Source: a virus. Taken from it: 64,000 nucleotides of DNA. Location: positions 1 through 64,000 of the IMG/VR virus record IMGVR_UViG_3300009177_000030, one strand, 5' to 3'. The position numbers were made by a program, and so were the translations under genes. This document shows, in pieces, positions 2,758-53,736 of the stretch (position 1 is its first letter; each line of letters opens with the position of its first letter). The notes beneath the pieces were generated by a model, which was not told the DNA's origin, ran no database searches, and worked only from the letters and a program-made list of their open reading frames with translations.

Positions 2758-3323
2758 TGCTTCGTGAGATCTGGATCGTCTCTCTGGCAGTCCGCTTTAT
2801 CGCCGTCCTGATCGGATTCCACCGCGCGCAGCGGCATTGGACCGTATGGGCGGCATTTTACTTACTGACCGGCATTGGGCTTCGCGCTTTGGACATATTT
2901 CGCCTGTGGCCTAACGATTACGCCTATCTGTGGTACGGGCAACAGATCGGCTCCACTTTACTCTTGGGTTTCCTCGTTTCCAAACTGATCCACCCGACTG
3001 AGATGCTGGTCCAGATATCTGCCTTGGCAGCGCTTGTAGCTACCGCAGTGATCTCTCAAGCGAATCACTGGCCCAGCAGCCCAACAGAGACCGTAATGTG
3101 GGGTTGCGGTACTGTTACGTTGGCGATGGGGATCATTTCGGTTATTGGTTCCAGGGAAGTCACCAGTGCTATATTGGCCGGCTTCCTGATTCTCTACTCC
3201 GCACTGATGCTGGCCGGTGCCGACTACCTGAACAGCGTGAATCTCGGGATTGCGTGGTCAGTTCTTGAGATCGTGGCGTTCGGGGCGTGGGGAATTTCGT
3301 TCCTGATTAACCGCGAGTCATAA
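2757..3323 (+). CDS. Polytopic membrane protein (188 aa)
   Basis: About six hydrophobic segments of 17-22 residues span almost the whole length, with short charged loops (HRAQRH, NHWPSS), so it is an integral inner-membrane protein. It is too long for a typical holin and has no recognisable transporter motif. It shares the TAATG junction with the preceding gene and overlaps the 3' end of a convergent gene by 17 nt. A host-envelope or superinfection role is conceivable but unsupported. Confidence 0.65.
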   Translation: MLREIWIVSLAVRFIAVLIGFHRAQRHWTVWAAFYLLTGIGLRALDIFRLWPNDYAYLWYGQQIGSTLLLGFLVSKLIHPTEMLVQISALAALVATAVISQANHWPSSPTETVMWGCGTVTLAMGIISVIGSREVTSAILAGFLILYSALMLAGADYLNSVNLGIAWSVLEIVAFGAWGISFLINRES

Positions 3324-3879
3324 CGAATTTGTGTTTCGCGAATGAACCGACCATCAACGCTCCGAGTTCGAGCATCTCCGAATGCGTCCTCGTGTGCGCT
3401 CCCGCTTTTCTTGCGACCATACGGCCATTGATCTGATACGTTCGTTCCGGCTTCGTCTTTCCCGCGTAGTGCCAGTTGTCGGCCTTGTAGATCGCCCCAG
3501 TGTGTCCGCGCCATTCGTCGGCGTACGTGACAAGGCACGGCCATGTCTCAGCCGGGATAAGGCGTCTGGAACGCGCAAGCAGAAACGTACAGGCATTAGC
3601 TGGAACCTCAGGGCGAATCGCCAACCGCGATAACGCGAGAACACCTTTCCAGTTCGCCGGGTATGTTGCTTCAGCTGCGCTTCGTGTTGGTGGAATCCAC
3701 CAAGCCACGCCAACGCATTGCTCTTGGAAGATATCACCCTCCCGAAACAGTCCATGTAAGTACGTAGCCGTGTTGCTGGCACCGGCAGCGTAGTGCTCAG
3801 CCTCAACCAAACGACGGGCGACAGCGATGTCTACATCGCGAACTACCCAGTCGGATTTGTGGAGGCGGGGATCACTCAT
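3307..3879 (-). CDS. Mom-like DNA adenine-modification protein (190 aa)
   Basis: Resembles the phage Mu Mom family, GNAT-fold enzymes that convert adenine in DNA to a bulky carbamoylmethyl-type derivative and block host restriction. Diagnostic stretches are EAEHYAAG (His29, Tyr30), LSRLAI at about 83-88, VTYADEWRGHTG at 117-128 and YKADNWHYAG at 131-140. The tyr-ala-asp / gly-his / asn-trp block is the hallmark I recognise for this family. Length fits. It is co-transcribed with the upstream HNH-type gene through a 4-nt ATGA overlap and converges on the membrane-protein gene. It probably acts on phage DNA late in infection. Enzymatic activity is inferred from family membership. Confidence 0.78.
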   Translation of the reverse strand: MSDPRLHKSDWVVRDVDIAVARRLVEAEHYAAGASNTATYLHGLFREGDIFQEQCVGVAWWIPPTRSAAEATYPANWKGVLALSRLAIRPEVPANACTFLLARSRRLIPAETWPCLVTYADEWRGHTGAIYKADNWHYAGKTKPERTYQINGRMVARKAGAHTRTHSEMLELGALMVGSFAKHKFVMTRG

Positions 3880-4661
3880 TCAGGATGCCGTTCAAGCCCA
3901 ACAAGAGCATCTTCTGGCTTCATGCCTTTGTTGTGAATACGCCAATACAGAGTGGCATAGCGCACCACCCGATTAAGCCGGGCATACTCTCTTACGGTCA
4001 TATAGCGACCCTCAAAAAACACATACTGTCCATAGTTTTCCGATTTAGATGCTTCCTCCAGCGATGCCCCGTTCTTCCATCGGTAATAGAAGGTCTGGTA
4101 GTTAATGCCTGAAGCGTCGGCGATCTGCCGAAGGGTACGCATCTCTCCCCAAAACAAAAACTTCTGACTCGTGCATCTGTTATTTCCTTGTTCTTTTACG
4201 GTCGCCCAATAGCAGTTGTCGGGAGCGTAGTCGCCGTCGTTGTTGCGCCGTTCAATAGAATGCTTTTTGGACGGGCGAGGCCCCATGTCGGCCAGGAAGC
4301 TCTCATATGATTCGAGCCAGCGCTCGCAGACTTTGATTCCACGCCCACCGTAACGCGGCCATGAAGGTTGATTGGGATTCAGGCATCTGGTTTTGATTGC
4401 CCCCCAGCACGCGAACTCTGGCGTACCTGTGGCTCCGTGAGTTTTGTTGGTGGGGTTTTCTTTTGCAAGACAACCACACGACCGAGTTGTTCCGGCCCTA
4501 AGGTTTCCATAGATAACGACCTTTTCCGTTCCACAATCACAGCGGCATTTGTACAAGTACTGAATAGATCCGCCCGGCGACCTTCTTTCTCTATCGAAGC
4601 CTAACACCGTGAATCTGTTAAACTTTACGCCGGGTTGAAGTATGCTGTGTTTAGGTCGCAT
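3876..4661 (-). CDS. HNH/AP2-class phage endonuclease-like protein (261 aa)
   Basis: The N-terminus (about 1-75) has a Cys-rich module, CRCDCGTEK followed by SCGCLAKEN. The centre (about 95-160) has YGGRGIKVCERW, FLADMGPRPS and NNDGDYAPDNCYWAT, a pattern common in phage HNH/AP2-associated endonucleases. The C-terminal third contains short helix-turn-helix-like repeats (LRQIADASGINYQTFYYRW, VREYARLN), typical of specificity modules in homing enzymes. It lies upstream of the Mom-like gene in a 4-nt-overlap pair and diverges from the portal gene 30 nt away. It may be a selfish gene or a partner of the modification enzyme. Confidence 0.6.
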   Translation of the reverse strand: MRPKHSILQPGVKFNRFTVLGFDRERRSPGGSIQYLYKCRCDCGTEKVVIYGNLRAGTTRSCGCLAKENPTNKTHGATGTPEFACWGAIKTRCLNPNQPSWPRYGGRGIKVCERWLESYESFLADMGPRPSKKHSIERRNNDGDYAPDNCYWATVKEQGNNRCTSQKFLFWGEMRTLRQIADASGINYQTFYYRWKNGASLEEASKSENYGQYVFFEGRYMTVREYARLNRVVRYATLYWRIHNKGMKPEDALVGLERHPE

Positions 4662-11900: not shown

Positions 11901-12170
11901 ATGGACGAATCTCCAAGCCCATCCCACGGTTCCCGCGAACTCATTGAAGTCTCGTTCAAGCCAGCCACAGGCGGCATGATCTCCGAAACCCGTCACAAGA
12001 CCGGCGGCGGTAAGTTCGGCCCCGACTACAAGCACGATACCGCGGTTCACGGTTCGCTTGGTCATGCAGTTCGGCATCTGAAGGCGGCGTTTGGGCAGGT
12101 TGGAGCAAGCAAGAAAAAAGAGCCGGGGATGAAGAAGTCAGACCGCTCAGCTAGTATGAAGAAGGGCTAA
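11901..12170 (+). CDS. Basic hypothetical protein (89 aa)
   Basis: Starts with a Ser/Pro-rich segment, then KPATGGMISETRHKTGGGK, and ends with a run of lysines (ASKKKEPGMKKSD). Last gene before a rho-independent terminator, so it closes the head operon. Function unknown. Confidence 0.55.
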   Translation: MDESPSPSHGSRELIEVSFKPATGGMISETRHKTGGGKFGPDYKHDTAVHGSLGHAVRHLKAAFGQVGASKKKEPGMKKSDRSASMKKG

Positions 12171-12200
12171 AGGATTTTGTTGCGCTCCCCGCGCATTACA

Positions 12201-12240
12201 GGGCAGGCTGTCTTCCTCCGGGACGCCTGCCCGTTTTTAT
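12201..12240 (+). terminator. Rho-independent terminator of the head operon
   Basis: Perfect 8-bp stem GGGCAGGC (12201-12208) / GCCTGCCC (12225-12232) with a 16-nt loop, followed by GTTTTTAT. Located between the basic-protein gene and the next structural gene. Confidence 0.85.
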
Positions 12241-12256
12241 TGGTACGGTAGATTAG

Positions 12257-13507
12257 ATGGATAATTTCACAACGCTTTCGCAACGCCTTCTGAACCGCGC
12301 CCCTCAGATCGGCATAGTCTTAGCCGGTCAGTTGGTGAACGATGCTTGGAGAACGTTGCAGGCCCGCAGGGACTGGTCGTGGCGCCGCCGGTCGCATACG
12401 TTTGCACCACCTACCTTGTACCAGGAAGGCGCGGCCAGCACGAATTCTGCAATCGGGTCACCAACGCTGGTCACAGGCGTAAACACTACCTGGACTTCAG
12501 ACATGATCGGCCGCCAGATTCGGATCGGCGGACTTTTATATCCGTATTACACAATTATCGGTTGGCTTTCTGCGACCGCAATTCTGATTGACCAGCCGTG
12601 GGCCGGCACGGATGTCACTAACGGTCCTTACCAGATCCTGAAATGCTATTTTGAAGTCCCTTCGGACTTCGGATACTGGGAAGTCGTCGCCAGCCTGAAG
12701 GATTCCTATCGGGTCTATCACCAGGCCACTGAAGACGAGCTCGCGCTGTACGATCCTCAGCGGACGAATCAGGGCCAGACCTACGGCATCGCGTTCTTTG
12801 ATTTCAGCAGCACGTACGGTGGGGTAGTCGGGCCCGTGATTCCGGTGACCTCTCCGACGTCTCCATCGCCGATCTCGACCACCACGTCGGGATACTCCTA
12901 CCCGGCGTCGGCCACGTTCATCGTTCAAGTAGTGACGGGTGGCGTTACGGGAGTGGCCACGTTCCAGTGGATTCGTGCTGGCCAGACTTCGTTCCAGCCA
13001 ACGATAATCACCGATACTTCCCCGCAGGATTTATCGGACGGCGTGCAGGTCTATTGGCCGGATACGCAGACGTATGTGTCGGGAGATTTGTTTGTAATAA
13101 ATTGCATCCCGATGATCACGGAAGGCGTCCCGCGGTATGAATTTTGGCCAGCGCCCACATACTCCCAGTACCTGTACAGTTCGGTGTACTTCGCCAAGGA
13201 ATTCGATCTGACTCCGCAGGCACCCACGTTGCCGCCTCCGATCGCTAACCGCGGGGAGGTGCTTTTAGAACTGGCTTTGGAAAAATGCGCGCAATTCCCA
13301 GGGCAAGACCTAGATCACGCGAATCCGTATTACAGCCTACAACTTGCTAAATATCACTTTGAAAAGTCGGAAATGATGATCGAGGATTTGCTTTCGAACG
13401 ATCAGAATATTGCGATCAGCAATATAAGTTACGAAAGTTTTCCGTTTTTGGGGCCGTGGGCCGATGGTGGTTATCGCCAAAGTCACTCGCCGTATTTGAA
13501 TGGATGA
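12257..13507 (+). CDS. Neck / tail-adaptor structural protein with beta insertion (416 aa)
   Basis: The N-terminal helical part contains NRAPQIGIVLAGQLVNDAWR, then WSWRRRSHTF. The C-terminal helical part (about 330-380) contains GEVLLELALEKCAQFPGQD. Together they resemble gp11/adaptor-type head-completion proteins of podoviruses. Residues about 60-131 form a beta module (SPTLVTGVNTTWTSDMIGRQ, IRIGG) that recurs in four other structural genes of this window. It probably bridges portal and tail nozzle. First gene after the head terminator, with TAGATT 3 nt before the ATG. Adaptor assignment is inference from order and shape. Confidence 0.6.
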   Translation: MDNFTTLSQRLLNRAPQIGIVLAGQLVNDAWRTLQARRDWSWRRRSHTFAPPTLYQEGAASTNSAIGSPTLVTGVNTTWTSDMIGRQIRIGGLLYPYYTIIGWLSATAILIDQPWAGTDVTNGPYQILKCYFEVPSDFGYWEVVASLKDSYRVYHQATEDELALYDPQRTNQGQTYGIAFFDFSSTYGGVVGPVIPVTSPTSPSPISTTTSGYSYPASATFIVQVVTGGVTGVATFQWIRAGQTSFQPTIITDTSPQDLSDGVQVYWPDTQTYVSGDLFVINCIPMITEGVPRYEFWPAPTYSQYLYSSVYFAKEFDLTPQAPTLPPPIANRGEVLLELALEKCAQFPGQDLDHANPYYSLQLAKYHFEKSEMMIEDLLSNDQNIAISNISYESFPFLGPWADGGYRQSHSPYLNG

Positions 13508-13520
13508 GGCCGTTAATTTC

Positions 13521-13672
13521 GGGAATTATATACATGAGTACAGTTAGCCTTTCTTTGCAGCACGTTTGGCCCTCTTTTTTTCGCGGCGCTTCGATGCCTT
13601 CGCTTTCTCCTTCGGCTTGTAGTTCAGCACTACATCGGAGATCAGGTCTAAGTCTTTGGGGGTGGTGCTCAT
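13521..13672 (-). repeat. Direct repeat copy 1 (80 nt identical, then diverged)
   Basis: From GGGAATTATATAC (13521) through 13600 the sequence is identical to 52001-52080. Similarity then continues with substitutions through the 42-aa peptide gene. Identity starts abruptly 23 nt downstream of the peptide stop codon, in non-coding DNA, which looks like an element end. Confidence 0.9.
13544..13672 (-). CDS. 42-aa Lys/Arg-rich peptide, copy 1
   Basis: Short minus-strand ORF. Acidic/neutral N-terminus (DLDLISDVVLNYKPKE) and a very basic tail (SKRREKKRAKRAAKKG). Its ATG overlaps the upstream stop by 4 nt. A near-identical paralogue sits at 52024-52152, also as the last gene of a transposase/modification operon. 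A DNA- or RNA-binding peptide is likely from its charge. It is conserved as a coding unit, because most differences between copies lie outside the basic tail. Confidence 0.7.
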   Translation of the reverse strand: MSTTPKDLDLISDVVLNYKPKEKAKASKRREKKRAKRAAKKG

Positions 13673-13818
13673 TTGGATTCCTTCAGGACTTTCCAGTAAC
13701 TCTTATGGCCGCTGTATTCGCAGCCGTCTTTCATCTTCACCCAGAGGCAACCGTTAATCACTTTGGTGACGACACCAACCTCGCCAGTCTTTTTCAGTTG
13801 AACTGTTTTCCCGGTCAT
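13669..13818 (-). CDS. Small beta protein, KOW/SH3-like look (49 aa)
   Basis: Start MTGKTVQLKK chosen by ATGA overlap with the upstream stop. Contains KTGEVGVVTKVINGCLWVKMKD, a pattern of short beta strands around a Gly-rich turn, like small SH3/KOW-type barrels. Present in cassette 1 only. Function unknown. Confidence 0.55.
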   Translation of the reverse strand: MTGKTVQLKKTGEVGVVTKVINGCLWVKMKDGCEYSGHKSYWKVLKESK

Positions 13819-14552
13819 CCGAACAACTCCAAGTTGCGGGCTATTGGGCCGTTCCACTTGGCGGCGCTGGCATGATTCTCGATATTGTCCCTCAAGAGCA
13901 TGGCTCTGGTTTCCTTACGCTTCGGGATGTAGGAGCCAGTCCATGCGGAGTCTATCCCGATATTTCGCGCCACGTTCGTGCTATCCACACTGGCGTAGGG
14001 AATCACCGAAAATACCTCCGGGTCCATCTGCCGCAAGCCGTGGAGTTTTACGTGCGGTCTACCTTCAGCGTCACAGGCCACGCCCATCGCTTCGGAAATT
14101 CGGCCCCACCACTTTCCCGTTCCGATAGTCACGAACTCGCCAGAGCTGCCGATAGCCACGCGCGACCACTCATCCACCAGCCATTGCAGGGTATCCAGAG
14201 ATTCGTGCATGTGCCAGACCGGGACACTGATCGAATGCGGCAACGGCCAATCCAATATGAGTTGCCTATTCTCCTGTTCGTTGCCGTCGATCACGTCGGG
14301 TATCAGGCACCAGTCAAAAGCCGGATGCCGGTACCAGGTTTCCACGAACGACAGATAGGACGGAACGTCAATAGTTCCCTTACCGGCAGCGAAAATCGGC
14401 CATGCACCGTTATCAATTGCCACGCTATCAGCGACCGCGAAAGCCAGTTCCGTCTGCTGGGGGTTGGCGAATGATACCATCGCGTGCGACCGCTTCCAAC
14501 ACGCAAGGGCGGCTGGCTCAGGAGTTATCGGGCCACCGTGATAGCGAATCAC
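13815..14552 (-). CDS. TGT/DpdA-like base-exchange enzyme candidate (245 aa)
   Basis: GTG 14552 overlaps the upstream stop (GTGA). Motifs recall the tRNA-guanine transglycosylase / DpdA fold: AIDNGAW (46-51 region), LIPDVIDG (about 83-90), VPVWHMHES (about 110-118), KLHGLRQMD (169-177) and SVDSTNVARN (188-197). DpdA enzymes swap guanine in DNA for 7-deazaguanine derivatives. The neighbouring PP-loop ATPase gene is consistent with nucleotide hypermodification. The similarity is by motif spacing, not by a clear full-length match, so another TIM-barrel enzyme remains possible. Confidence 0.5.
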   Translation of the reverse strand: MIRYHGGPITPEPAALACWKRSHAMVSFANPQQTELAFAVADSVAIDNGAWPIFAAGKGTIDVPSYLSFVETWYRHPAFDWCLIPDVIDGNEQENRQLILDWPLPHSISVPVWHMHESLDTLQWLVDEWSRVAIGSSGEFVTIGTGKWWGRISEAMGVACDAEGRPHVKLHGLRQMDPEVFSVIPYASVDSTNVARNIGIDSAWTGSYIPKRKETRAMLLRDNIENHASAAKWNGPIARNLELFG

Positions 14553-15358
14553 TGGGCACACTCGCAGGGCAGCGCGCTTTCGGTTTCGTAAAGGTTGACC
14601 AGCCGTTTCGCCTCTTTCCAGAACGTGCCAGGCTTCAGCAGTTCCGTAGCCCCTACGCCAGCACGGCGCATAACCTCGAACTTGTCACCGAGTTCCAGCA
14701 ACGAATGGCCCTTGATGATCGTGTAGCCGATTTCCTCTTCAGCCCAGAGTCCACGTTCCCAGACATCGGGCCGCGTGCAGTAGACGACGTACCAGTGCTG
14801 CATTCCGGCCTTCAGGCATCCGGTGCAGTTGGCGTGACGAAACACGCTGTACGTATCCGGCGGCAGGATACCGATCTCAGAGGTAGTTGTTATCGTGCGC
14901 TCCCACTGCGCCAGAGGAAACGCCGTGCGGTAACCCATCACGCCAAGAATCTGAGCACGCCGCTGGATTCGGGCCGGTTCCTTGAGGTCGAATCCGTAGT
15001 AAAGCATGGAAGTCTGGTCGATCCCGTTGGCCTTCAGCCATCCGTAAAACGGCTCCGTCTTCATGCGGTTAGTGCAAAGGGCCGTTCCGTTTCCGACCTT
15101 GAAAGCCCCGGCCTCAACCACTACGTCAAACTGATCCTTTCGGAACCAGTCCGCCATATTCGCATAGGTGACCGGCACGCCGATGTATCCGGCGATCTCG
15201 TTTTTGTACCGCTTAATATCGGCGTCTTCAGAAGTTCCGACGATATCGTGGTTCAGGAGGATCAGGGATTCGTTGCCGAATTTCCGGCTGACTTCGATGG
15301 CGGTAAGTGCCGACGATTCCCCACCCGAATAGCAGATGATGTGAGCATTCTGGATCAT
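14549..15358 (-). CDS. PAPS-reductase-like PP-loop ATPase (269 aa)
   Basis: The N-terminal PP-loop IICYSGGESSALTAIEV (SGG at 11-13) activates substrates by adenylation. LCTNRMKTEPFYGWLK (about 94-109) is the Cys-Thr-x-x-x-Lys block typical of phage PAPS-reductase-family proteins. A later NCTGCLKAG supplies two further cysteines for a metal or disulfide. Family members include PAPS reductase, DndC and thiolation/deazapurine enzymes. It overlaps the DpdA-like gene and the transposase-like gene by 4 nt each, so the three are one translational unit. A DNA-modification role is inferred from context. Confidence 0.7.
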   Translation of the reverse strand: MIQNAHIICYSGGESSALTAIEVSRKFGNESLILLNHDIVGTSEDADIKRYKNEIAGYIGVPVTYANMADWFRKDQFDVVVEAGAFKVGNGTALCTNRMKTEPFYGWLKANGIDQTSMLYYGFDLKEPARIQRRAQILGVMGYRTAFPLAQWERTITTTSEIGILPPDTYSVFRHANCTGCLKAGMQHWYVVYCTRPDVWERGLWAEEEIGYTIIKGHSLLELGDKFEVMRRAGVGATELLKPGTFWKEAKRLVNLYETESALPCECAQ

Positions 15359-16359
15359 GCCGACACCTTCGCAATCAGCCGCTCATACGTCAGGCGCTTG
15401 CCCACGATGGCGTCAATGAACGATTCCAACCGCCGCATAGTGTGGCGCTTCACATCGCCTTCGTTCAGCCGGAACGTGAATTCGTCAATGTATCGGTGCA
15501 GATGCTTTGGAGACACCTGATGGTAAACGCCATGAATACCGCGCTTCAGTACCGCCCAGACCGATTCAATTCCGTTGGTATGGGCTACGCCGTTGACCCA
15601 TTGACCAGCGGAATGGTTGCAGGTTTCGTGCCGGAAGAACAGGCCGTTCAGATCGGTATATGCGCCAAACTCATCGGTGTAGATTTGCGAACCGGCTTCC
15701 ACCGCGCCGTGAATCTCATTCTGGACCGTGCCAGCGTCCGTGGAGTCCACCACCATAGCGACCGTGCGGCCACCAGCGCCCCGCTCCCGCATTCCGAGCA
15801 CGGCAGTCTTTCCGACCGATCCCCTGCCAGCCTTGAGCTTCTTATGCTCGTGTTTGTTCTTTTCCTTGCCGCCTACAAACGTCTCGTCAATTTCGATAAT
15901 GCCGCGAAGTTTGTCGATGTTGTCCGGCGCGGAGCAAGCCTCACGCAACCGGCCCAAAATGAACCACGCGGTTTTCTGTGTGACGCCAATCTCTTTGGCA
16001 AGTTGCATAGAGGAAATCCCCTTGCGGGCCGTGACCACCAGATACTCGATGCTCTTGAATTCCGGGAACGTATTCCATTTCTCTACCCCGTAATTCGCAC
16101 CGTCGAACCGCATCCAGCTATTGCCGTGCCTGAATGAAATCTCGTTATCGGTCATCCAACGAGGCCGAGAATCCGCCCGCAGCATCGTGTCGTTGAAGCA
16201 GCCGCCTTCTGGCGTGTAGAGCCGAACGTGATCCACTGCGATGAGAGCAACAGCCAGAGGATCTGTGGATAGGGGAGCAAACGCACAGACAGAAGAGTAC
16301 TCGGGAGTGATCCAGGGGAAGCCTTCATTGAGGGCGTGGGTTATGCGGGTGACGGTCAT
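15355..16359 (-). CDS. IS1595/ISXO2-type DDE transposase-like protein, copy 1 (334 aa)
   Basis: Residues about 106-334 match the ISXO2-like transposase domain: KGISSMQLAKEIGVTQKTAW, IEIDETFVGGK (Asp158), YTDEFGAY (Asp229) and TNGIESVWAVLKRG (Glu265), an intact catalytic triad. Residues 1-105 are not the usual zinc-ribbon N-terminus. They are replaced by an unrelated sequence (SFRHGNSWMRFDGANYGVEK). A diverged copy is at 52943-53689. It is embedded in an operon by a 4-nt overlap with the downstream PP-loop gene, unusual for a free insertion sequence. Transposition competence is doubtful. A domesticated nuclease is possible. Confidence 0.75.
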   Translation of the reverse strand: MTVTRITHALNEGFPWITPEYSSVCAFAPLSTDPLAVALIAVDHVRLYTPEGGCFNDTMLRADSRPRWMTDNEISFRHGNSWMRFDGANYGVEKWNTFPEFKSIEYLVVTARKGISSMQLAKEIGVTQKTAWFILGRLREACSAPDNIDKLRGIIEIDETFVGGKEKNKHEHKKLKAGRGSVGKTAVLGMRERGAGGRTVAMVVDSTDAGTVQNEIHGAVEAGSQIYTDEFGAYTDLNGLFFRHETCNHSAGQWVNGVAHTNGIESVWAVLKRGIHGVYHQVSPKHLHRYIDEFTFRLNEGDVKRHTMRRLESFIDAIVGKRLTYERLIAKVSA

Positions 16360-16808: not shown

Positions 16809-17366
16809 TTAAAGGGCAACGGGAACCCGCTTCAGACCAAAATCCCGCAGTTTGATTTTCGCCATACGTCCATCTGTGTGATGGAAAACCAGACCTTCGA
16901 TATCGCGTAATGACAGCCACTCCCGTAGCCCATCAAAATCTCGGGGAGCCTCCGCGAAAGACTCCAACGCGCTATGGTATTTCAGAACGTGGACAGGATA
17001 ACCCTCTGGGTTCCCCTGAACCTTTGGGCCTAATAGTTCGCAGGTTCCGTCTGTCATTCCCGGCACGAATGCCTCACGGTGCCATCTATCTTCGGGGCCA
17101 TCGCCTACGGGCACCCATCCGATAACCTTCCCAGTTTCTTCGTCGCTAGTGACGCGCTCAAATCCAACAGGGTTGGCGTCCGTCTCTCGAAGTTCCCGAC
17201 GCTTATAAAGTTTCCCGTCTCGGATCATACAGCAAGTACCGTCAACCTTGCGAGTGGCCACGCCTTCGCCAACAGAAACCCATTCACAGCCAGCGTGGAC
17301 CTGATTTATGACTCGACTTCGGTCGCCGTTCCAGTCACGTTCAAACATCGTTGGAATCTTGTTCAC
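16809..17366 (-). CDS. RNA ligase family protein (185 aa)
   Basis: Nucleotidyltransferase core: motif I TRKVDGTCC (Lys40 for adenylation), a central WVPVGDGPEDRWH region, motif IV EGLVFHH (about 157-163) and motif V KIKLRDF (about 170-176). It matches the short phage RNA-ligase-1-like family that begins xNKIPTxFERD. GTG 17366 (NKIPTMFERDW) is chosen accordingly. An upstream ATG would add 30 unrelated residues. It seals RNA 5'-phosphate/3'-OH ends, typically repairing tRNA cut by host anticodon nucleases. No polynucleotide kinase/phosphatase gene is seen here. Confidence 0.75.
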   Translation of the reverse strand: MNKIPTMFERDWNGDRSRVINQVHAGCEWVSVGEGVATRKVDGTCCMIRDGKLYKRRELRETDANPVGFERVTSDEETGKVIGWVPVGDGPEDRWHREAFVPGMTDGTCELLGPKVQGNPEGYPVHVLKYHSALESFAEAPRDFDGLREWLSLRDIEGLVFHHTDGRMAKIKLRDFGLKRVPVAL

Positions 17367-17431
17367 AACAGTATAGTGACACCATGACGCCGATATTGTC
17401 AACCACTTCGGCCAGCATCCAACAACAACAG

Positions 17432-17602
17432 CTATTTCGGCTCCACATACTTCCACCTCACCGTCATATCGTTCTTCGGTAGGTACGTCACGTACAAACC
17501 GGGAACGGTCAGATCAGTAGTATCGCCACGGTCTGAGTTCTCGATGACGATCCGCTTTCCGGCAACGCGGCGAAGCTCGTGGATTATAGATTCGGGTTTC
17601 AA
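17432..17602 (-). CDS. Hypothetical protein with TTG start (56 aa)
   Basis: TTG at 17602 overlaps the upstream stop as TTGA. Contains ELRRVAGKRIVIENSDRG and YVTYLPKNDMTVRWKYVEP, suggesting a small alpha/beta or beta fold. Fills the gap between RNA ligase and the coiled-coil protein. Unrecognised. Confidence 0.5.
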   Translation of the reverse strand: MKPESIIHELRRVAGKRIVIENSDRGDTTDLTVPGLYVTYLPKNDMTVRWKYVEPK

Positions 17603-30673: not shown

Positions 30674-32320
30674 ATGCCTAAGCAGATTCAATTCGAAGGT
30701 GCCACGCACGAATTCCCGGATGACTTCACGCAGGCTGACATCGCGAAAGCCCTGTCTGGCGCACATGGGGCAACCGCTACGGCCACAGCACCACGTCCCA
30801 GTTCACGACTGCCAATGAATCTGGGGCACATCTATACTCCTCCACTACAGGAGTCTGGCTTCTTCAGCGAGAGCGGTTTCGGTCCCGGCACTTTAGGCAA
30901 AGGCATTGGCGAGGTAATTCAGCCCGGTAAGCGGTTGGCCGGGCTGCATGATATTTTCGTGGGCGCAGGAGAGACCGCTTCGCCCGGTGTCCTTCCGTCT
31001 TTAGTGGCTGCGCCTGTCGCCACAATCGGAACTCTCGCTGCCGCTGGATTAGGTGGTGCTGTTGGGAAAGTCGGCTCTATGATAGCCGGTGCGAGTCCCG
31101 AGGTGTCTGATCTTGCCGGAGACGCCGGAAGCGTCCTCGGCGGTGGCATCGCGTCATCCCCCAAAATCCAGGCATTCACCAAAGGCGCTATCAAGGCCAT
31201 TCCCGGCGCAATCTCTGAGGGTGGTGGTTATCCCACCCTCTATGGCATCCTGCATGGCAAGACATCACTTCCTGCGGTTCTAGGGACACTGGCAGGCCAT
31301 GCATTTGGCCACCCCTACGAAGGTGGCGCATTGGGCGTCCTTGGTGGCGCTACCCCGACCGCTATACGTGGTGGACTGGCCGCTGCGGAGAACGCTCCAT
31401 GGCTTCCTCAACTGTTCCGTGAGCCCATCGTGCGGCCACCGGCGGGATGGCAGCAAGCCGGGGTAGAACCCACTCCGAGCGGAATTTCTCGACGAAGTGG
31501 TTCGGCCACGCCTATACTAGCCACTGAAACTCCTACAGGTCGCAAGCCAGGCGGCATCCAAAACCAGACCGCTATTGAGCCCATCGTGCGGCCACCGGCG
31601 GCACGTTTTGAGCCGACTCCACGGCCAGCACCGGATGCTACACCGATACCAGCCACCGAAACCCCCACCGGTCGCAAGCCAGGCGGCATCCAAAACCAGA
31701 CCACTATCGAACCCATCGTGCGGCCACCGGCGGCAGAACTTGCCGGCATTGATCCGAACGATCTGGATGCAGCAGCATCGTTGCTGACGAACAACAAAAA
31801 GATGTTCAAAGATCTGACCGGCGCGAATCGTCAGACGGCGATCAATCAGGCCAGGGGATTCTCACAACAGAGGATAGCGTTGCAGGGTAAGCCAGCCGCC
31901 GCCATGCAGCCCGTAGCCACGTCTGCTCCAGCCACCACCTACATGCCAGACCTGGAGGCTAAGGTGATAGCCGCACCGATTGAGCCACTAGCCTCCGGTG
32001 CGCCGATGCAGCCGATTGGCAACAACATCAACTACCCGGGCCATATCCACGAGCAACTCCACGGAGCCGGTCCTGAAGTAGCCATCACTCACGCATCGAA
32101 CGCCAGCGCCAAGGATCTCGCTGTGGCAACGCGCCTGAAGGCGGCCGGAATTACACCAGCAGCAGTGGATGCGATGACCGATGCGGAACTGAACCAGCAC
32201 TATAAGGCGCTCGGCTATAAGCCGCTTGGATCAGACTTCAAACCAGGCAAGCGCGTTGGGCGTCCGGCAGATGTGGGGCGCCTGCACTTGAGAACGGTAT
32301 TGGGGGATCTATGGAAATAG
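30674..32320 (+). CDS. Internal virion protein candidate with peptide repeats (548 aa)
   Basis: The N-terminus (1-30) has a small fold (IQFEGATHEFPDDFTQADIA) of the type found at the start of large phage internal proteins. Residues about 95-235 are Gly/Ala-rich and potentially membrane-active. About 250-355 carries repeats of EPIVRPPA and of TETPTGRKPGGIQNQT. The C-terminal part is helical. Follows the other internal protein directly. Likely ejected or structural. Confidence 0.55.
   Translation: MPKQIQFEGATHEFPDDFTQADIAKALSGAHGATATATAPRPSSRLPMNLGHIYTPPLQESGFFSESGFGPGTLGKGIGEVIQPGKRLAGLHDIFVGAGETASPGVLPSLVAAPVATIGTLAAAGLGGAVGKVGSMIAGASPEVSDLAGDAGSVLGGGIASSPKIQAFTKGAIKAIPGAISEGGGYPTLYGILHGKTSLPAVLGTLAGHAFGHPYEGGALGVLGGATPTAIRGGLAAAENAPWLPQLFREPIVRPPAGWQQAGVEPTPSGISRRSGSATPILATETPTGRKPGGIQNQTAIEPIVRPPAARFEPTPRPAPDATPIPATETPTGRKPGGIQNQTTIEPIVRPPAAELAGIDPNDLDAAASLLTNNKKMFKDLTGANRQTAINQARGFSQQRIALQGKPAAAMQPVATSAPATTYMPDLEAKVIAAPIEPLASGAPMQPIGNNINYPGHIHEQLHGAGPEVAITHASNASAKDLAVATRLKAAGITPAAVDAMTDAELNQHYKALGYKPLGSDFKPGKRVGRPADVGRLHLRTVLGDLWK
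31524..31736 (+). repeat. Two in-frame ~80-bp coding repeats
   Basis: 31524-31604 and 31656-31736 are near-identical and encode TPTGRKPGGIQNQT followed by IEPIVRPPAA, offset by 132 bp (44 codons). A third partial copy of EPIVRPPA is at 31421-31445. Confidence 0.85.
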
Positions 32321-52000: not shown

Positions 52001-52152
52001 GGGAATTATATACATGAGTACAGTTAGCCTTTCTTTGCAGCACGTTTGGCCCTCTTTTTTTCGCGGCGCTTCGATGCCTTCTGTTTGTCCTTCGGCTTGT
52101 AGTTCAGGACTACATCGGAGATCAGGTCTAACTCTTTTGGGGTGGTTGTCAT
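52001..52152 (-). repeat. Direct repeat copy 2
   Basis: Counterpart of 13521-13672. 80 nt (52001-52080) are identical, including 23 nt of non-coding DNA past the peptide stop. The flanks are unrelated (ACCTAACAAT here, CGTTAATTTC there). Confidence 0.9.
52024..52152 (-). CDS. 42-aa Lys/Arg-rich peptide, copy 2
   Basis: Same peptide as in cassette 1 with a few substitutions (MTTTPKELDLIS; KPKDKQKASKRR). ATGA overlap with the methyltransferase stop. Terminal gene of cassette 2. Basic tail suggests nucleic-acid binding. Confidence 0.7.
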   Translation of the reverse strand: MTTTPKELDLISDVVLNYKPKDKQKASKRREKKRAKRAAKKG

Positions 52153-52946
52153 ATAAAACTCAAAACCTCTTGAGAAAGTCTCTTTGCTGCAATCTCACAG
52201 TAGCGTTCCTCGATTTCGATTCCAATGGCGGGACGCCCTGTTTCCTTGGCCGCTCGGAGAGTTGTACCACTGCCAGAAAACGGATCTACTACCAGACCTG
52301 GCTTTGTCGTTTCCATGGCACGCAGCGGCAGTCCGATTGGAAACGGAGCCGGGTGCTCTGTGCCGGATTCTTGCGGTACGTACCAAACATCCCCGACTCC
52401 GCTTGCGCCCTTATCGCGGAGCCTGAAGGCAGGTTTTGCCAGAATCATAATCCACTCGTGGGTGGGAACGTAGTGCGTGGGCGCGAAGTTTATTCCACCG
52501 GCCCGTTGCCAGATGACAATCTGCCTAAGTGGCAACCCTGGATTCAAGGACGTAGGGAGCCACACTTCGCAACTCTGCGCGCGTGGTTTGTGGTTATAGT
52601 AAATCGCGCCTTCCTCTGTCAATTGCGAGTAGCAGAGCGTAAGTATGTCGCGTTGCCACGCTTCATACTCCGGCCATGGCATAGCGTCGGTGCAGACGCC
52701 GTAACCGTCCGCGAGTGCCCCACCAGACCATTTACCGCACCCGCCGCGCGCCTTCCCCATCCTCGCGTCATCGGAGTAATGACCGTGATTGCGAACGAAT
52801 TTAGAGGCAAACCCACCGCCCGTGGTGACTCCAAGATTGTACGGCGGCGACGTGAATATCAAATCCGCCGGCGGCAGTGTTGGGAGAACCTCACGACAGT
52901 CTCCGTGGTAGATCGTGATATCGCCATGCTGGTAATACGGCTTCAC
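52149..52946 (-). CDS. N4/N6 DNA methyltransferase, beta-type (265 aa)
   Basis: Motif IV TSPPYN (residues 32-37) precedes motif I DPFSGSGTT (221-229), the beta-class order of N4-cytosine/N6-adenine methyltransferases. Other motifs: HGDCREVLPTLPPADLI, YNHKPRAQ and HYVPTHEWIMILAKP. It methylates DNA, probably to resist host restriction. It overlaps the transposase-like gene by ATGA and the basic peptide by ATGA. Confidence 0.85.
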   Translation of the reverse strand: MKPYYQHGDITIYHGDCREVLPTLPPADLIFTSPPYNLGVTTGGGFASKFVRNHGHYSDDARMGKARGGCGKWSGGALADGYGVCTDAMPWPEYEAWQRDILTLCYSQLTEEGAIYYNHKPRAQSCEVWLPTSLNPGLPLRQIVIWQRAGGINFAPTHYVPTHEWIMILAKPAFRLRDKGASGVGDVWYVPQESGTEHPAPFPIGLPLRAMETTKPGLVVDPFSGSGTTLRAAKETGRPAIGIEIEERYCEIAAKRLSQEVLSFI

Positions 52947-53689
52947 GCGATCACCTTCGCAATCAACTGCTCATATGTGAGGCGCTTCCCGACAATGGCG
53001 TCGATGAACGACTCCAGCCGCCTCATGGTGTGGCGCTTCACATCGCCCTCGTTCAGCCGGAACGTGAATTCGTCAACGTATCGGTGCAGATGCTTCGGAG
53101 ACACCTGATGGTAAACGCCATGAATGCCACGCTTCAGAACCGCCCAGACCGATTCAATCGAGTTGGTGTTAGCCAGACCCCGCGCATACTCCCCGGCGCT
53201 GTGGTTGACGCTCTCGTGCGAATAGAAAAGGCCGTCCAGATCGTTAAACACCATGTGGTCATCGGTGTAAAGCTGGCTACCCACTTCCACGTTGGCGTGA
53301 ATCTCGCCGTGGATAAAGTCCAGCGACCGTTGCTCCACGACTTGCGCCCGCGTTCGACCGCCACGCTCCCGCATTCCGAGCACGGCGACCTTGCCGACCG
53401 CGCCGCGTCCGGCCTTCAGTTTCTTCGATTCGTGCTTGTTCTTTTCCTTGCCGCCTACAAACGTCTCATCAATTTCGATGATGCCGCGAAGTTTGTCGAT
53501 GTTGTCAGGGCTGGAGCACGCCTCACGCAACCGGCCCAGAATGAACCATGCAGTTTTCTGCGTGACTCCGATCTCCTTCGCCAGTTGCATCGAACTGATA
53601 CCCTTGCGTGCCGTGACAACAAGATACATGGCGTAGACCCATTTGTGAAGCGGAACCTTAGACCGCTCGAACACCGTTCCGGTGCGCAC
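52943..53689 (-). CDS. IS1595/ISXO2-type DDE transposase-like protein, copy 2 (248 aa)
   Basis: Residues 22-248 match copy 1 (high identity, mostly conservative changes). Catalytic set IEIDETF (Asp74), YTDDHMVF (Asp143) and TNSIESVW (Glu179). The N-terminus TGTVFERSKVPLHKWVYAM and the upstream in-frame CNACNF belong to the second half of the family zinc ribbon. The first half is missing behind a stop, so the protein starts at GTG 53689. Not obviously active. Paired with a methyltransferase instead of a DpdA-like enzyme. Confidence 0.75.
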   Translation of the reverse strand: MRTGTVFERSKVPLHKWVYAMYLVVTARKGISSMQLAKEIGVTQKTAWFILGRLREACSSPDNIDKLRGIIEIDETFVGGKEKNKHESKKLKAGRGAVGKVAVLGMRERGGRTRAQVVEQRSLDFIHGEIHANVEVGSQLYTDDHMVFNDLDGLFYSHESVNHSAGEYARGLANTNSIESVWAVLKRGIHGVYHQVSPKHLHRYVDEFTFRLNEGDVKRHTMRRLESFIDAIVGKRLTYEQLIAKVIA

Positions 53690-53736
53690 CGTAAAATCGA
53701 AGTTGCAGGCATTGCAGCGGAAAGCCGGTGCGCTTG

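Follow-up and report, generated by a model that had tools for sequence, protein, structure and literature searches.

IS1595 elements with passenger genes (tIS), for example MTnSag1/tISSag10 and tISCpe8, are already known (PMC5704250). The phage elements described here resemble them in having an IS1595 DDE transposase, terminal inverted repeats (TIRs) of about 25 bp, 8-bp duplications and passengers between the ends; the tIS, however, belong to Firmicutes, carry other genes (lincomycin resistance in the case of tISCpe8) and at least some of them are mobilised by conjugation (PMC5704250), whereas the present elements reside in phages, often carry DNA-modification cargo and have a conserved basic peptide and a promoter at the leading end. 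IS1595-type insertion sequences, like the elements reported here, combine a zinc ribbon with a DDE_Tnp_IS1595 domain and an 8-bp duplication, but their canonical members carry the transposase gene alone (PMC8101967); the zinc ribbon is a trait of all IS1595 groups except IS1016. MICs and MITEs have both ends, lack a transposase and are activated in trans, MICs containing in addition a passenger gene (PMC3129680). The transposase-less members of the present family are alike in having both ends and no transposase, and presumably in being mobilised in trans, but they are found in phages, with payloads such as methyltransferases, Mom, or QueD plus a TGT-like gene. As passenger IS1595 elements (PMC5704250) and transposase-less insertion cassettes (PMC3129680) have both been described, ours is not a new kind of element. 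No precedent for IS1595 cargo elements in phages was found in the literature searched, which stops short of the full IS1595 passenger list, and as far as the searchable literature goes the phage residency, the theme of DNA-modification payloads and the conserved basic peptide are new.

The window (the whole stretch of DNA analysed, 64,000 nucleotides) covers the initial 64 kb of a 94,720-bp IMG/VR viral contig that encodes portal and major head proteins of phage type. In cassette 1 the gene order, read on the minus strand, is transposase-like, PP-loop, TGT/DpdA-like, a 49-aa protein and a 42-aa basic peptide. The first-pass annotation had described this order as an operon held together by 4-nt overlaps, and all four junctions are indeed present (ATGA, GTGA, ATGA and ATGA). 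It had also set the left boundary at 13521, which is exactly the first base of a 23-bp TIR (13521..13543, plus strand; GGGAATTATATACATGAGTACAG) on the distal, basic-peptide side; this sequence is identical in cassette 2 and at both ends of the intact elements L004 and L012. The octamer TTAATTTC (13513..13520) adjoins the TIR as target duplications do in complete elements and is possibly the left half of one; the partner that the first-pass annotation had anticipated was searched for where the opposite side would be expected and was not found, since the second transposon end has been lost.

From the TIR inwards, the minus strand of cassette 1 encodes the 42-aa basic peptide (13544..13672; motif LDxIxDVVLxYxPKxKxKAxK), which is the conserved accessory ORF of the family and has 94.7% DNA identity to its cassette 2 copy; the 49-aa protein (13669..13818), which starts through an ATGA overlap and has a weak phrog_1690 match; the predicted TGT/DpdA-like enzyme (13815..14552; phrog_887, E 3e-60), whose GTG start overlaps the PP-loop stop (GTGA); and the PP-loop protein (14549..15358; phrog_424), a PAPS-reductase-like N-type ATP pyrophosphatase with a CYSGGESSA loop and conserved Cys residues. 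The 334-aa transposase-like ORF (16359-15355; PF12762, E 1.7e-47; NCBIfam IS1595, E 6e-56) is composite: 15355..16047 encodes the catalytic part of an N-terminally truncated IS1595-family DDE transposase, with the invariant D..D..E columns kept, and 16048..16359 encodes a 104-aa non-homologous extension, fused in frame and lying outside the element. The minus-strand cluster to which cassette 1 belongs also includes an RNA ligase-like gene (phrog_14301, RLIG1; 16809-17456) immediately upstream of it.

A second cassette in the window (52001-53717) has the same end, a near-identical 42-aa basic peptide, a related IS1595-family transposase and a different payload. Its TIR (52001..52023, plus strand) repeats the sequence of the cassette 1 TIR and is followed on the minus strand by the basic peptide (52024..52152), an N4/N6 DNA methyltransferase as passenger (52149..52946; PF01555, E 4.5e-28, the sole PF01555 match in the contig) and a 5'-truncated transposase that retains the DDE domain and the last part of the zinc-ribbon region (52943..53717; PF12762, E 5.6e-45, no PF12760). 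The transposase ORF begins at a GTG at 53689, homology to L004 stops at 53717, and the gene is the one other copy of the cassette 1 transposase in the contig (52943-53689, 81% aa identity). In both cassettes the passengers are bounded by the surviving end on one side and by the transposase on the other. At the DNA level the two share a block at 13521-13672 and 52001-52152 (95%) and the DDE region (79%), the payloads between being unrelated; the N-termini of the two transposases are also unrelated to each other. Identity amounts to 94.7% in the end modules and 77.5% in the transposases, and therefore the window copies are mosaics on which recombination or conversion has acted. Elsewhere in the window (3307-4661), a Mom-like gene (PF25680) and an HNH endonuclease-like gene form a coupled pair that lacks these transposon ends, which brings the DNA-modification loci of the phage to at least three. 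A 99-bp sequence is also present in two direct copies, 89% identical (31505-31735), inside a 548-aa ORF (30674-32320).

TIRs at both ends are a trait of the IS1595 family, and the window cassettes retain a single TIR each, on the distal side; a second one for either was not found in the 94.7-kb contig, and a search for a duplication partner of either returned none. PF12762 with its DDE residues is present in both window copies and in their relatives. The N-terminal zinc ribbon (PF12760) is absent from the contig, including both window copies, and is present in the intact relatives scanned, which have PF12760 plus PF12762, that is, a zinc-ribbon and DDE transposase. As judged from their sequences, the window cassettes are truncated derivatives that have lost the zinc ribbon and the transposase-side end. 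In cassette 1, residues 1-104 of the transposase-like ORF (16359-16048) stand in place of the zinc-ribbon domain and are without homology to any transposase; no match for them was found in cultured phages, in the rest of the contig or in the syntenic phage L332. An AlphaFold model of the chimeric transposase is of low confidence and predicts the new N-terminus to be disordered. The cassette 1 junction recurs with 99.99% identity in a second IMG/VR contig, which may not be independent, and despite this misassembly could be a partial cause of the 5' truncation of both copies. L332, the only relative of the flanking gene besides the same-virus contig, has the same flanking structural genes with other genes between them and no cassette 1; no exact empty site was found.

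A viral scan with the cassette 1 transposase gave 53 loci, most of which align only from about residue 106, because the relatives have a normal zinc-ribbon N-terminus and the window copy does not. Among the relatives, L004 is a complete element on another viral contig (94.9 kb) with the same end sequence on both sides and another payload; over the 12.7 kb compared, the element is all that this contig and the window have in common. Compared with L004, cassette 1 has two differences in the 229 residues of its DDE part (227/229 identical; dS ~0.70, dN ~0.02). This low dN/dS reflects purifying selection, which may predate the truncation.

We then scanned IMG/VR for the terminal repeat and paired the ends; the counts that follow cover the matches listed. 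Among these are 68 distinct elements with the repeat at both ends (including one same-site pair, L017/L018, and one nested pair, L074), of which 67 have an exact 8-bp target duplication. Exact duplications flanked 64 of the 81 nearest convergent TIR pairs listed, against 2 of 6480 mismatched pairs (0.03%), and the insertion sites of TIR-bounded elements are 80% AT. The same transposase was also found at different positions, accompanied by other payloads (L282/L283, 90%; L154/L273, 91%). These assembled sequences suggest that the family has been active in transposition. In the nested insertion (L074:7107-8583), a 476-bp element interrupts the end of a second element, whose cargo is a DHH phosphoesterase.

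The transposase is full-length in 33 of the 68 listed elements, partial in 9 and without a match in 26. The latter have both ends and a passenger but no transposase, which is the definition of an MIC; it is inapplicable to the window cassettes. The basic peptide, detected by HMM in about 40 of the 68, occurs essentially always with the transposase and 3' of it. In the relatives, the stop codon of the transposase and the start codon that follows usually share the tetranucleotide ATGA. At the leading end, TTGACT is often found at TIR position 14, with a -10-like box 17 bp further; this promoter motif (at least 9 of 12 matches) was present in 58% of 43 elements, in 0% of trailing ends and in 4% of shuffles. 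Given translational coupling and a leading-end promoter in the family, the operon structure therefore appears to be the way in which passengers are expressed. Five complete elements (L046, L047, L049, L052 and L054) have a transposase cut to about the N-terminal 120-150 residues, with the zinc ribbon kept, and in most of them the basic peptide is coupled downstream; these shortened transposases might repress transposition or be derivatives that bind DNA.

Among the payloads, DNA modification recurs strongly though not universally: it accounts for 18 of the 68 listed elements if PP-loop genes are included (DNA methyltransferase or Mom, 14; a QueD plus TGT-like pair, 1; PP-loop, 3), and many payloads are unassigned. 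N6/N4 methylases are the cargo in nine cases (window cassette 2 and, by motif, L010, L025, L068, L102, L134, L145, L146 and L157), C5 methylases in two, also by motif (L006 and L099), phrog_757 methyltransferases in two (L070 and L133) and Mom in two (L072 and L134). QueD was found once, in L069, adjoining a protein that weakly resembles the DpdA-like family; PP-loop genes occur in L004, L012 and L026, besides window cassette 1; and TnpB (L171) and the DHH phosphoesterase (L074) are single cases. In these two-ended relatives the passenger genes lie inside the transposon ends, as in tIS. The TnpB element (L171:2157-3334) is transposase-less, with these ends and an 8-bp duplication, and its sole large ORF is TnpB (OrfB_IS605, Cas12f1-like TNB). 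Another phage contig, L134, contains two transposase-less elements (1658-2462 and 11961-12588), of which one has a methyltransferase and the other a Mom-like gene.

The large ORFs flanking the viral elements are phage genes, among them many terminases, together with portals, primases and helicases. When about 85,000 species of bacteria and archaea were scanned, 72 loci were obtained, most of them in Acidobacteria and Alphaproteobacteria MAGs; 42 of the 72 have both ends and an exact duplication, and the flanks of the bacterial elements are mostly chromosomal-looking, with a few integrases and terminases. Bacterial payloads include C5 methyltransferases, Vsr, and Eco57I/MmeI-type and EcoRI-type methyltransferases with restriction-like partners, and bacterial relatives carry whole restriction-modification systems. 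In five bacterial elements (L266, L290, L293, L294 and L299) the payload (C5 methylase, P63C and others) has the basic-peptide motif (LDxIxDxVLxYxP) as its N-terminal part. No member of the close family was found in cultured phages, which gave just two distant transposase matches at about 37% and no basic peptide, and the IS1595 transposases of plasmids are all below 60% (best 45%), with no close relatives.

With respect to the cargo of cassette 1, phage DpdA systems of 7-deazaguanine modification involve a TGT-superfamily enzyme, such as the present gene may encode, and singleton DpdAs without preQ0 genes are known in phages (PMC6884629); the present gene differs from them in having a PAPS-like PP-loop partner and in lying inside a transposon remnant, and the 94.7-kb contig yielded no match to the QueC or QueD families. 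By itself, the DpdA-like family is frequent in phages, with 104 records from cultured phages and 79 IMG/VR loci. Neither this PP-loop family nor the transposase lies near any of these 79 IMG/VR relatives, and hence we rejected the PP-loop and DpdA-like genes as a conserved pair or fixed unit. The model of the DpdA-like protein is a confident barrel type (pLDDT 88), with tryptophan synthase alpha as its best fold matches; archaeosine TGT (1j2b) was a weak match at rank 35, so that TGT is not singled out, and the family profile had no matches among PDB sequences. The PP-loop protein has one clear PDB relative, 21fy 'PptA' (E 2e-11).

The exact TIR and the two-ended relatives support the earlier idea of a passenger-carrying IS1595-type unit, and we consider it very probable that both cassettes are decayed copies, with one end left, of phage-resident IS1595-family transposons that carry passenger genes. 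When intact, such an element would comprise a leading TIR with its promoter, the transposase, the passenger gene or genes, the basic peptide and the trailing TIR, other orders also occurring, and translational coupling would ensure that passengers are made together with the transposase. The latter would bind the ends via its zinc ribbon and insert the element with an 8-bp duplication, whereas derivatives that keep both ends and lack the transposase would presumably be mobilised in trans. Payloads that modify DNA may benefit the phage through resistance to host restriction. In the window copies the promoter, the end and the zinc ribbon appear to have been lost on the transposase side; because of the loss of this end and of the zinc ribbon they are probably immobile and fixed in place, and they are probably expressed from the upstream minus-strand gene cluster. 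The proposal of an island that moves with a DDE enzyme would then apply to the family, with its two ends and 8-bp duplications, but probably no longer to this copy, with one end and no zinc ribbon.

The first-pass annotation had also raised domestication, whereby the truncated transposase with its new N-terminus would now be a phage protein working with the modification genes. The ORF is intact, the DDE residues are kept, and the residues shared with L004 at the dS and dN given above, the open DDE ORF of cassette 2 and the retained coupling to cargo are all consistent with this idea. A transposase that was under selection until its truncation would, however, show the same low dN/dS; no relatives of the new N-terminus were found, and it is predicted to be disordered, though the whole model is poor; and the two window copies differ completely in this region, while most relatives are complete transposons. 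We thus regard domestication as unlikely. Mobilisation of the window copies by the intact transposase of a co-infecting phage or of the host is a still weaker candidate: trans-mobilisation is probably common in a family where 26 of 68 listed elements lack a transposase match, but it needs two ends, and the window cassettes have one each. To an ordinary phage gene island, with an order produced by homologous recombination between phages and the transposase as a chance neighbour, we assign the lowest probability. It is contradicted by the exact TIR at position 13521, by the recurrence of this architecture with a different payload at 52001, and by the TIR and 8-bp duplications around complete relatives, even though PP-loop and DpdA-like genes in phages usually occur without a transposase and the mosaic end modules imply that recombination or conversion took place.

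Beyond the reading of both cassettes as degenerate transposon copies, a wider picture can be offered tentatively, and with more doubt than confidence. The elements might form a mobile-cassette system of phages, in which an IS1595-type transposase moves autonomous elements and transposase-less mini-elements among phages and hosts, with DNA-modification payloads being favoured. The basic peptide, which some bacterial elements have as an N-terminal fusion to the cargo, would act in transposition or in its control; anti-restriction chemistry would be changed by transposition, and a useful payload would then be fixed by losing one end.

The exchange of DNA-modification genes between phages is usually ascribed to homologous recombination. 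A phage transposon family carrying methyltransferases, Mom, QueD/TGT-like and PP-loop genes represents a testable route by which anti-restriction genes could pass between unrelated phages. Furthermore, the conserved terminal repeat eases the discovery of payloads, as what lies between two ends is probably a gene useful to phages. Together, our results suggest that transposition enables phages to acquire and exchange protection from bacterial restriction.
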